From contig NZ_QWBW01000041.1 of NCBI RefSeq assembly GCF_004117855.1, forward strand, positions 1 to 38,609: DNA of 38,609 nucleotides, in the 5' to 3' direction. Source of the stretch: Modicisalibacter coralii. Its GTDB lineage: Bacteria > Pseudomonadota > Gammaproteobacteria > Pseudomonadales > Halomonadaceae. Positions 27,866 to 29,758 of this stretch are shown one piece after another. Position numbers and translations under genes: made by a program. Position 1 is the first letter of the stretch, and each line of letters opens with the position of its first letter. The notes beneath the pieces are model-generated. The model saw nothing but the letters and a program-made list of their open reading frames with translations. It had not been told where the DNA came from and made no database searches.

Positions 27866-27912
27866 CAAAATGCCTGCGCTCGGCGATTTTTCAGACAAGG
27901 CCGAGGGGATAT
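27866..27912 (+). repeat. Remnant sharing a 17-mer with the large palindrome
   Basis: CAAAATGCCTGCGCTCG (27866-27882) is identical to 6914-6930 in the left arm of the 141-bp palindrome. The following bases include CAGACAAGGC, similar to the opposite arm, but the long symmetrical arms are lost. It appears to be a decayed or shortened copy next to cloverleaf copy B. Confidence 0.55.
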
Positions 27913-27939
27913 CTGGCTGGGCGTGCGGGACGAGGGGCG

Positions 27940-28034
27940 CCGGAGGCAGGCCGTAGAGGAGGTCCTACGCCATGGAAGGCGTAGGTAGCGCCCATGGATG
28001 GGTTTACAGCGCCTCCTCGCAGGCCTGCCGCCGG
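27940..28034 (-). repeat. Cloverleaf-shaped intergenic repeat, copy B
   Basis: This is the inverted partner of the repeat ahead of narK. Outer stem GGCAGGCC (27945-27952) with GGCCTGCC (28022-28029), extended by CCGG on both sides beyond one mismatch; inner stem GAGGAGG (27956-27962) with CCTCCTC (28012-28018); hairpin CCTACGCC / GGCGTAGG (27964-27971, 27978-27985) and hairpin CCCAT / ATGGG (27991-28002). On the plus strand, the direction of narI and ppiC, the loops read ATGGAA and GG within ATGGAT, so GGA lies in or near both loops. Confidence 0.85.
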
Positions 28035-28109
28035 TTCAGCCCCGAGTGACCGTGAGATGGTTACATCCTCGCTGGACGATACAGCACGCCCAAAGACATT
28101 GAGAGAGTC

Positions 28110-28910
28110 ATGACCATGCAACAGATTGCCATCGAAACCCTGCCGGGCGGCGGCGTGCCGATCCGCGTCGGCGAGGTCGCCATCGACGAAGCCGAGATCG
28201 CCCGCGAGATGCAGCACCACCCGGCCGACAGCGCCGACGATGCCCGCGAGGGGGCGCTGCGGGCCCTGGTGATCCGCGAGCTGCTGCGCCAGCGGGCGCA
28301 GGAGCTGGGCCTGGACGGCGACGACGAGGCCGCCGTCGCCGCCCTGCTGGAAGACGAGCTGACGATTCCCGAGCCCGACGAGGCCGACTGCCGGCGTTAT
28401 TTCGACGCCCACCGCGAGCGCTTCGGCGAACCGGCGCGGCTGTCGGTGCGTCACATCCTGCTGGCGGCGGCCCCGGACGACGCCGAGGGTCGCGATGCCG
28501 GCTACCGCCGGGGCACGGCGTTGATCGACGAACTCGCCGAGAACCCCGAACGCTTCACCGATCTGGCCCGGCAGCACTCCGCCTGCCCCACGAAGGAAAG
28601 CGGCGGTGAACTGGGCTGGCTCACCCCGGGCCAGACCGTCGCCGAACTCGACCGCGCGCTGCAGACCCTGCCCGAGGGCCTGCACGACCGACCGCTGGCT
28701 TCGCGTTACGGCTGGCACGTGGTGTGTATCGATGAGCGCCGCGACGCTCGCCCGCTGCCCTTCGAGGCGGTCGCCGAGCGCGTCCGCCATACCCTGCGCG
28801 AACAGGCCACGCGGCGTGCCCTGCGGCACTACCTGCTGGCCCTGGAAGCCGAGATCGGCGTCACCGGCTTTCGCCTCGACGACGACGCGGCGGGTGCGCT
28901 GATGCAGTAG
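28110..28910 (+). CDS. PpiC-type (parvulin) peptidyl-prolyl isomerase
   Basis: This 266-residue protein has a NifM/SurA-like helical N-terminal part and a parvulin domain at about residues 105-205: LSVRHILLAA, ERFTDLARQHSACPTKESGG, LGWLTPGQ, LASRYGWHVVCIDER. It has no signal peptide, so it should act in the cytoplasm. A similar gene follows narI in Pseudomonas nar operons, where a role in maturation of the nitrate reductase is assumed. ATG at 28110 (or 28116) follows a weak GAGAG. The 254-bp gap to narI with a structured repeat leaves it open whether it is co-transcribed. Confidence 0.88.
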   Translation: MTMQQIAIETLPGGGVPIRVGEVAIDEAEIAREMQHHPADSADDAREGALRALVIRELLRQRAQELGLDGDDEAAVAALLEDELTIPEPDEADCRRYFDAHRERFGEPARLSVRHILLAAAPDDAEGRDAGYRRGTALIDELAENPERFTDLARQHSACPTKESGGELGWLTPGQTVAELDRALQTLPEGLHDRPLASRYGWHVVCIDERRDARPLPFEAVAERVRHTLREQATRRALRHYLLALEAEIGVTGFRLDDDAAGALMQ

Positions 28911-28942
28911 CCCGGCGATCCCCGGCGAGGTGTGATGAACCC

Positions 28943-28975
28943 AAAAAAAGCGCCCTGCCAATGATGGCAGGGCGC
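28943..28975 (-). terminator. Intrinsic terminator of the CsrB/RsmZ-like RNA
   Basis: An 11-bp perfect stem (GCGCCCTGCCA 28950-28960 with TGGCAGGGCGC 28965-28975, loop ATGA) is followed, reading the minus strand, by seven T residues (28949 down to 28943). There is no T-run on the plus side, so it ends a minus-strand transcript and does not primarily serve ppiC. Confidence 0.92.
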
Positions 28976-29117
28976 ATACGCAGGGATCGTCTGTACAGGT
29001 CGTCTTTCCTGACGAGGGACATCGTGTCCTTCCCGCGCCTTCCTGGCGGCGGGACGGCCATCCTAGCCGAAAGCTTCCTTGCTTGCCTCGCGATCCTCCT
29101 GATCGCGAAGACGGGGT
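28943..29117 (-). ncRNA. CsrB/RsmZ-like small RNA (CsrA/RsmA sponge)
   Basis: On the minus strand, about 175 bases end at a strong intrinsic terminator and contain eight GGA motifs. Five sit in hairpin loops: AGGAG closed by the 8-bp stem 29088-29095/29101-29108; AAGGAA closed by AAGC/GCTT (29071-29084); TAGGATG closed by CGGC/GCCG (29055-29069); AGGAA closed by CGCC/GGCG (29036-29048); AGGAAA closed by CGTC/GACG (29001-29014). Multiple GGA-loop hairpins plus terminator are the hallmark of the CsrB/CsrC/RsmX/Y/Z RNAs, which bind and titrate the translational regulator CsrA/RsmA. No open reading frame of note lies on this strand. The 5' end is inferred to be just before the first stem, near 29117. 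Confidence 0.85.
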
Positions 29118-29292
29118 TACACTAGAACACAAAATTTAACAATGTGCCAGTTTCACCCTGCGCTCATGGGGGAAAACGTCGACGAACCGGTTTCGCCAGC
29201 GGCCCATTGGCCTGCGACCGGTGAATGGGGGCAGCCCCGATTGCAGGTCATCAGGGACTGCCGAAGCATTGCCTATCCTTGCCGTTTCTCAC
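29118..29292 (-). promoter_or_regulatory. Presumed promoter region of the CsrB/RsmZ-like RNA
   Basis: The first 30 bases are AT-rich (minus strand CATTGTTAAATTTTGTG, then TTCTAGTGTAAC), in contrast to the surroundings, and probably hold the promoter; I cannot fix the -10 and -35 boxes (TGTAAC with TTGTTA is 15 bp apart). The rest of this 175-bp stretch shows no gene and no clear intrinsic terminator on the minus strand, so read-through from the repeat array upstream is possible. Confidence 0.45.
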
Positions 29293-29637
29293 GGGCGTCC
29301 TGCCCGTCCATCCCTGGTAGTTCCAGCGAGCATCCTGCTCGCCCATCCCTGGATTCTGCCGGGCGTCCTGCCCGTCCATCCCTGGCAATTCCAGCGAGCA
29401 TCCTGCTCGCCCATCCCTGGATGCTGCCGGGCGTCCTGCCCGTCCGTCCCTGGTAGTTCCAGCGAGCATCCTGCTCGCCCATCCGTGGATGCTTCTGGGC
29501 GTCCTGCCCGTCCGTCCCTGGTAGTTCCAGCGAGCATCCTGCTCGCCCATCCCTGGATGCTTCCGGGCGTCCTGCCCGTCGTCCCTGGTTGCCGAGCCAT
29601 CCGTGGCTCGTCTTCCCTGGCGGGCCTCCTCTGCCCG
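29293..29637 (-). repeat. 68-bp tandem array of hairpins with GGA loops on the minus strand
   Basis: Four exact-length 68-bp units start at 29293, 29361, 29429 and 29497; a fifth, diverged and shortened, starts at 29565. Every full unit has GGGC-GTCCT-GCCC and GCGAGC-ATCCT-GCTCGC, plus two short CCR/TGG mini-stems with TCCC-type loops. Read on the minus strand these loops are AGGAC, AGGAT and GGGA. I count 30 GGA triplets on the minus strand in 345 bases. The fifth unit has different stems (CGAGCCA/TGGCTCG at 29593-29610, CGGGC/GCCCG at 29621-29637) but keeps GGA in the loop. The period is not a multiple of three, so it is not coding. It may itself be a regulatory RNA. Confidence 0.85.
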
Positions 29638-29655
29638 ATGCCGCACACGGTGACA

Positions 29656-29719
29656 GCTATAGCAGGGTGTCTATATAACTCATGTTATCAACACAAAGAA
29701 AAGTTCGTGATTTCTTACA
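29656..29719 (-). promoter_or_regulatory. AT-rich promoter candidate with GacA-box-like sequence
   Basis: This AT-rich block stands directly upstream of the array on the minus strand. It contains TGTAAG-N6-CGAACT (29719 down to 29702), which matches the GacA/UvrY box TGTAAG-N6-CTTACA at 9 of 12 fixed positions, with the central AT also seen in the consensus. Possible -10 boxes on the minus strand are TATATA (29672-29677) and TATAGC (29656-29661); no convincing -35 was found, which is common for activator-dependent promoters. Confidence 0.4.
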
Positions 29720-29758
29720 ATCAGTAATTTGCCTTGGATTGAGTGAGACAATCCGTGG

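Follow-up and report, generated by a model that had tools for sequence, protein, structure and literature searches.

A tandemly multiplied two-hairpin module in a probable CsrA sponge RNA gene of Modicisalibacter coralii

The window analysed here, a 38,609-nt stretch of the Modicisalibacter coralii genome (contig NZ_QWBW01000041.1), contains a tandem array of 68-bp units that is, in all likelihood, the body of a Csr/Rsm-type sponge RNA gene, enlarged by multiplication of a module of two hairpins. The GGA hairpins of CsrB/Rsm RNAs bind CsrA dimers, and in this way free the mRNAs that CsrA targets. The most likely role for the RNA specified by the array is that of a high-capacity CsrA sponge, a reading in which transcription, CsrA binding, capacity, regulation and benefit are all inferred from the DNA. 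An earlier note on this DNA had proposed an expanded CsrA sponge, and that proposal still appears to fit best: it is supported by short, syntenic orthologues, by matches to an RNA family model at both ends of the array, and by the presence in the same genome of CsrA and of a UvrY/GacA relative.

Organization of the array

A repeat of period 68 bp, with 4.4 copies and 94% matches, is reported by TRF at 29292–29589 on the minus strand, where the earlier note had placed its array. The units had been described as exact, but they are not. The four are 67, 68, 68 and 68 nt long, and any two are identical at 63–65 of 68 positions, which points to a rather recent multiplication event. Each unit comprises two modules: a CCAGGGA linker followed by a CGGGC-AGGAC-GCCC(G) hairpin (A), and another CCAGGGA linker (CCACGGA in one instance) followed by a GCGAGC-AGGAU-GCUCGC hairpin (B). 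A fifth A-type hairpin closes the array. By motif there are about 11 hairpins, including two upstream of the units, and nine CAGGA(U/C)G hairpin loops; counted automatically on the predicted fold, GGA hairpins number nine. The features of the locus are these:

29702–29719, minus strand: degenerate GacA/UvrY-type box (TGTAAGAAATCACGAACT), agreeing at 12 of 16 informative positions
29671–29686, minus strand: putative –10 region block (AACATGAGTTATATAG), placed by orthologue alignment and by a layout common to family members
29621–29637, minus strand: original hairpin 1, GGA in the loop, within the match to model R1 at 29539–29640
29594–29609, minus strand: original hairpin 2, CGGA-containing loop, within the same R1 match, 29539–29640
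29522–29588, minus strand: array unit 1 (67 nt), in which a CCAGGGA linker and hairpin A (with AGGAC in its loop) precede a further linker and hairpin B (with AGGAU in its loop)
29454–29521, minus strand: array unit 2 (68 nt)
29386–29453, minus strand: array unit 3 (68 nt)
29318–29385, minus strand: array unit 4 (68 nt)
29271–29317, minus strand: last hairpin A and original 3' tail (GGCAAGGATAGGC), within the R1 match at 29264–29377 (E 3.1e-10)
29168–29222, minus strand: possible weak terminator in the predicted fold, an imperfect stem, several bases, then TTTT
28943–29115, minus strand: second GGA-rich RNA, CsrB-like, its start putative; 8 GGA in 29112–28943, strong terminator at 28975–28943

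Recounting confirmed 30 GGA triplets on the minus strand of 29293–29637, against four on the plus. The chance expectation of about five quoted in the earlier note assumed equal use of the bases; calculated from the actual base content, in which 142 of the 345 are G, it rises to 13.5, and from dinucleotides to 18. The array region as a whole has 31 GGA in 426 nt. The element CAGGA(A/C/U)G, named for CsrB in a part of PMC7652899, occurs nine times in the 345-nt array range—the same number as in Escherichia coli csrB—and, in the remaining 38,264 bases of the window, 21 times on the minus strand and 15 times on the plus. As expected of a Csr/Rsm RNA, GGA motifs are numerous both in the loops of the hairpins and in the linkers, with partial predicted exposure of the loops. 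The array occupies a single site in its own 4.44 Mb genome, with a copy number taken from a draft assembly of 74 contigs, and the expansion is known from this one genome.

Unexpanded orthologues at the same place

When 28935–29720 was used as the query in a search of the genus, 8 of 14 genomes matched, the query genome itself counted. At two loci, L003 and L004 (genomes G011 and G005), identity is 78–79% across query positions 6–157, which run from the promoter region as far as hairpin 3. The downstream CsrB-like RNA, which follows in the same order, is matched in part, at 69%. Both loci are flanked by FtsH and PpiC, 89–91% identical to the proteins of the window. In the window a ChaC gene separates ftsH from the RNA; the stretches examined at the two orthologous loci gave no match to this gene. 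The first RNA of G005 and G011 is short. It has three hairpins by reading, or four GGA hairpins by the automatic count (on the G011 cluster), and in the orthologue L003 (G011) it has seven GGA over its length. Aligned with its orthologue, the window matches from the promoter region into hairpin 3, and diverges where the array begins.

The segment 29589–29640, which the earlier note took for a diverged fifth unit, aligns to the unexpanded orthologues and is the gene's original 5' part. Its differences are therefore not evidence of selection among units, and the suggestion that changes on both sides of its stems reflected selection for structure lapses, since the segment is not a repeat unit at all. 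The best reading of the array is that a short RNA gene has been enlarged, its promoter region, 5' end and 3' tail remaining while the two-hairpin module between them was multiplied. The direction of change was probably expansion here rather than loss in the relatives, to judge from two orthologues that closely resemble each other.

A family of short RNAs in the Halomonadaceae

A covariance model, R1, was built from 12 short RNAs, among them the orthologue L003 but no sequence from the window. It matches both ends of the array over model positions 1–108, at 29640–29539 (E 2.5e-11) and at 29377–29264. This match places the array in the Halomonadaceae family that R1 describes, and so does the syntenic position of an unexpanded orthologue. 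Within the genus, 9 of 14 genomes matched R1 at E<=0.01, and eight of them encode 17, 13, 12, 7, 6, 5, 4 and 3 such transcripts when the threshold is E<=5e-6 and neighbours are merged. The highest counts belong to genomes of the Modicisalibacter group, G002 (17), G012 (13) and G007 (12). In five genus genomes (G001, G003, G004, G006 and G010) csrA is present and R1 finds nothing at E<=0.01; these genomes may have other Csr RNAs, or may have lost theirs. In a sample of the wider family, 49 of 121 genomes matched at 1e-6 under stricter filters.

Removal of repeat places, and of second matches within one transcript, reduced 89 R1 matches from 77 of 153 loci to 68 places, in which related sequences are counted at full weight. 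Upstream boxes were scored against what we take to be the Rsm-type consensus. At least 12 of 16 positions agree in 41 of the 68 places; of 1360 shuffles 12 score as high, and of the 68 stretches taken downstream 2 do. A terminator follows 52 of the 68 places, and the two control stretches give counts of 3 and 5 of 68. The genome of the array itself has five family places. Two of these have a box at or above 12/16 (the array and C7:246179) and one has a strict terminator (C7:246179), the array and three of the other four failing this test. All 7 pairs of the family's hairpin 3 show changes on both sides, and 96% of the cells are paired over 69 distinct rows, in an alignment fitted to that very structure; in an unfitted alignment of 12 rows, both sides have changed in 3 of 7. 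From the unfitted rows RNAalifold recovered hairpin 3 but not hairpins 1 and 2, and drew a long-range helix in place of these two.

The core of these RNAs usually has 6–7 GGA (57 of the 68 places), in about three hairpins, and the array, with 31, lies far outside this range. The next-largest GGA cluster among the loci examined has 13. Relatives of intermediate size do occur (L007, L015, L119 at 672–870, and L030). L119 has a 35-bp repeat in 3.2 copies, L030 has the 13-GGA cluster, and two RNAs of double length have 14 and 15 GGA. These relatives look as though hairpin modules had been gained repeatedly. Elsewhere, locus L126 (G012:C30:4600-9000) has four matches to Csr-type small RNAs on one strand within about 3.1 kb.

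At Rfam gathering thresholds nothing was detected in the window, nor in 12 loci with short relatives. Below them, the CsrB model (RF00018) scores 13.7 bits on the array against a gathering threshold of 71, the RsmY model (RF00195) scores 20.4 against 57 on its 3' end, and the rsmX model scores 18.2 against 56 on the downstream RNA. By these scores the array falls outside both the CsrB and the RsmY sequence families. Counts of up to 17 transcripts in a genome, together with the lack of a gathering-level match in those 12 loci, suggest that sponge RNAs are numerous and variable in this group.

Predicted fold

Folding of 29250–29660 is stronger than that of shuffled sequences (z –4.89). Hairpins with AGGAC and AGGAU loops alternate as the earlier note had described, but its word for their stems, 'firm', is too strong: the inner-pair probabilities of the nine local stems range from 0.10 to 0.92 in the unrestricted full-length fold, and from 0.10 to 1.0 when spans are limited to 60 nt. 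In the predicted fold these local stems compete with pairing between units. In the unrestricted fold, the probability of being unpaired averages 0.59 across the bases of all 31 GGA; in the nine loop GGA it is at least 0.98 for the second and third bases, and goes down to 0.14 for the first G. A 60-nt limit on spans leaves one loop GGA with an open probability of just 0.36. CsrA binding is possibly weaker on very stable stems, according to a portion of PMC7652899, and this calls for some caution here.

Promoter side, 3' end and downstream RNA

A generic scan found no sigma-70 promoter at the array. The upstream box of the array is separated by 15 nt from an AAC-N4-GTTA block. In six other family members the interval between the box and an AAC-N4-[GT]TTA block is 9 nt, and so the array is 6 nt off. 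The best upstream box scores in the orthologues L003 and L004 reach 8 of 16. An imperfect inverted repeat, CACGAACTTTTCTTTGTG, lies at 29692–29709 and is perfect, by eye, in both orthologues (CACGAATTTTTCTTCGTG). It is possibly the site of another regulator and overlaps the place of the GacA box, near where relatives have theirs, so that GacA may or may not control the array.

Strict tests detected no terminator 3' of the array, and the orthologues L003 and L004 fail these tests also. The CsrB-like RNA that the earlier note had seen nearby does lie just downstream on the same strand, GGA-rich and with a strong terminator. Beyond the array there is no Pfam-matching gene on the minus strand of which it could form the leader, ppiC being on the plus, and a minus-strand open reading frame that overlaps the downstream RNA, 27891–29132, has no Pfam match.

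Alternative explanations

Regular palindromic units in an intergenic location are what a neutral family of REP-like palindromes, unconnected with CsrA, might present. Such a family would be expected at many unrelated sites, the very outcome that the earlier note had named as its refutation. That outcome did not occur: the array is found at one place only in its genome, and both of its ends and its upstream flank are homologous to a short, syntenic RNA. We rejected a REP-like repeat and regard it as extremely improbable. The chance that the repeat encodes protein seems next to nil. Reading frames of 104–168 aa do overlap the array on both strands (29221–29727 and 29142–29456 on the plus, 29251–29646 and 29289–29648 on the minus), but none of the four has a Pfam match at E<=1, for which we rejected this reading too; the period of 68 is not divisible by three, and the relatives of the array are short RNAs, mostly with terminators.

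Two further explanations accept that the gene is a Csr RNA. According to one, the gene is genuine but its units were multiplied by replication slippage and make at most a slight contribution to the titration of CsrA. This agrees with the recency of the event that the similarity of the units suggests, with the possibility of pairing between units, and with the outcome of a pattern search that showed a Csr-type array in one genome among 275 of the Halomonadaceae. It accords less well with the units themselves, all four of which retain their hairpin loops and linker GGA, and whose differences fall mostly outside the stems and GGA: 2 of 8 variable columns lie among the 44 of 68 that form these elements (P 0.019, with the column set chosen post hoc). 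We consider such a neutral expansion unlikely. The other explanation, compatible with a role as a sponge, is that the array has no 3' end of its own and is transcribed with its neighbour to 28943, as a single double sponge. No strict terminator separates the two RNAs, either in the window or at the orthologous loci; their synteny extends to three genomes, the downstream member having been kept in both G005 and G011; and the stretch 29675–28943, 733 nt, would carry 39 GGA. Set against this are an AT-rich, promoter-like block that precedes the downstream RNA in all three genomes, by eye, and the imperfect stem with TTTT at 29222–29168. A joint transcript of this kind is a real possibility, though somewhat less likely than not.

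Proposed function of the expanded RNA

If the array is an enlarged sponge RNA gene, as we favour, transcription of the minus strand would begin at about 29665, and an RNA of the three-hairpin, ancestral type would have become one of about 11 GGA hairpins joined by CCAGGGA linkers. CsrA dimers would bind to these hairpins and be withheld from target mRNAs, so that each array transcript should titrate several-fold more CsrA than does a short RNA. The transcript may end at the weak terminator, or else read through into its CsrB-like neighbour to form a double sponge of about 730 nt. A more elaborate idea, about which we are doubtful, is that the sponge is adjustable in length, slippage by 68 bp shifting the heritable set-point of CsrA among cells of the same species, with the array and the downstream RNA forming one double sponge. 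Were that so, gain or loss of a unit would alter the number of CsrA dimers removed per transcript. One locus, with three hairpins in two genomes versus about 11 in a third, offers a comparison within a single gene, and allows a direct test of how CsrA activity is set by the sites that one transcript carries, as distinct from how abundant the transcript is.

Comparison with known systems

Like the array, CsrB and CsrC of E. coli are non-coding, are rich in GGA in the linkers as well as in the loops of their hairpins, and are proposed to titrate CsrA. E. coli csrB has 22 GGA in 369 nt, compared with 31 in the 426 nt of the array region, but TRF finds no tandem array in it; its best self-match is 0.32 (lags 15–119), whereas the array range reaches 0.83 at lag 68. 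RsmX, RsmY and RsmZ of Pseudomonas are closer in form to the short relatives of the array, being short GGA-hairpin RNAs, several to a genome, with an 18-bp upstream box. The upstream activating sequence of rsmY is TGTAAGCATTCTCTTACA, one of two such boxes printed in a section of PMC4353343, and the same section gives RsmY and RsmZ of strain SS101 eight GGA each, against the 31 of the array. The short R1 RNAs share with the array their 5' and 3' ends, their linkers and the layout of their hairpins, and differ in having about three hairpins rather than about 11.

Csr sponges have been enlarged elsewhere by other means. In Vibrio, as an excerpt of PMC6262261 relates, several csrB copies arose by duplication of the whole gene; in the array a module was multiplied within one gene. 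Both enlarge the number of sponge sites, so that capacity raised elsewhere by extra genes is here raised, it would seem, from inside one. A Pseudoalteromonas Csr RNA is reported to have 25 GGA, and the several-copy cases named are of 2 to 4 copies, in the portion of PMC11882849 that covers them; the names of P. syringae RNAs, where listed, reach RsmX5, in addition to RsmY and RsmZ. Searches of open-licence PubMed Central papers listed no title or opening of an abstract that mentions a Csr RNA with an internal tandem array.

A search of Halomonadaceae genomes used one pattern, three hairpins with GCAGGANGC three times at a fixed range of spacings, which misses other stem sequences. It matched 21 of 275 genomes. 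It recovered the array (the matches listed in G000 are the array), but no other Csr-type array by this one pattern. Among the matches listed, which are the first places of each genome, G007 and G012 have one different GGA-rich place each and G200 has a single match; most of the others look like coding-type repeats of 42 bp or shorter, or like microsatellites. One form of the array module, sought as an exact pattern in named genomes, gave no match, in a collection that may omit the genome itself and those very near it. A further TRF array, in Modicisalibacter luteus (L109 3514–3880), was set aside for want of CAGGA hairpins of the array kind. Its units, of 55 bp and 33 bp, are palindromic in places; it adjoins repeats of TTGGTAGAAAC type, and is apparently unrelated.

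CsrA and regulator proteins

The genome that carries the array encodes one CsrA, identical at 54 of 60 residues to a CsrA of solved structure, and with the RNA-binding residues L4 and R44 both present, which are named in a CsrA figure legend of PMC7652899. It also encodes a relative of UvrY/GacA, which scores 290 bits against a curated cut-off of 280. Eleven of the 14 genomes of the genus have one csrA copy apiece, versus three in G002, two in G012 and three in G007, and these three are the same three that have the most R1 small RNAs. The extra csrA copies include some that lie beside small RNAs of the Csr type, at G002:C12:20966-22014, G012:C28:327578-327997 and G007:C23:225923-226941.
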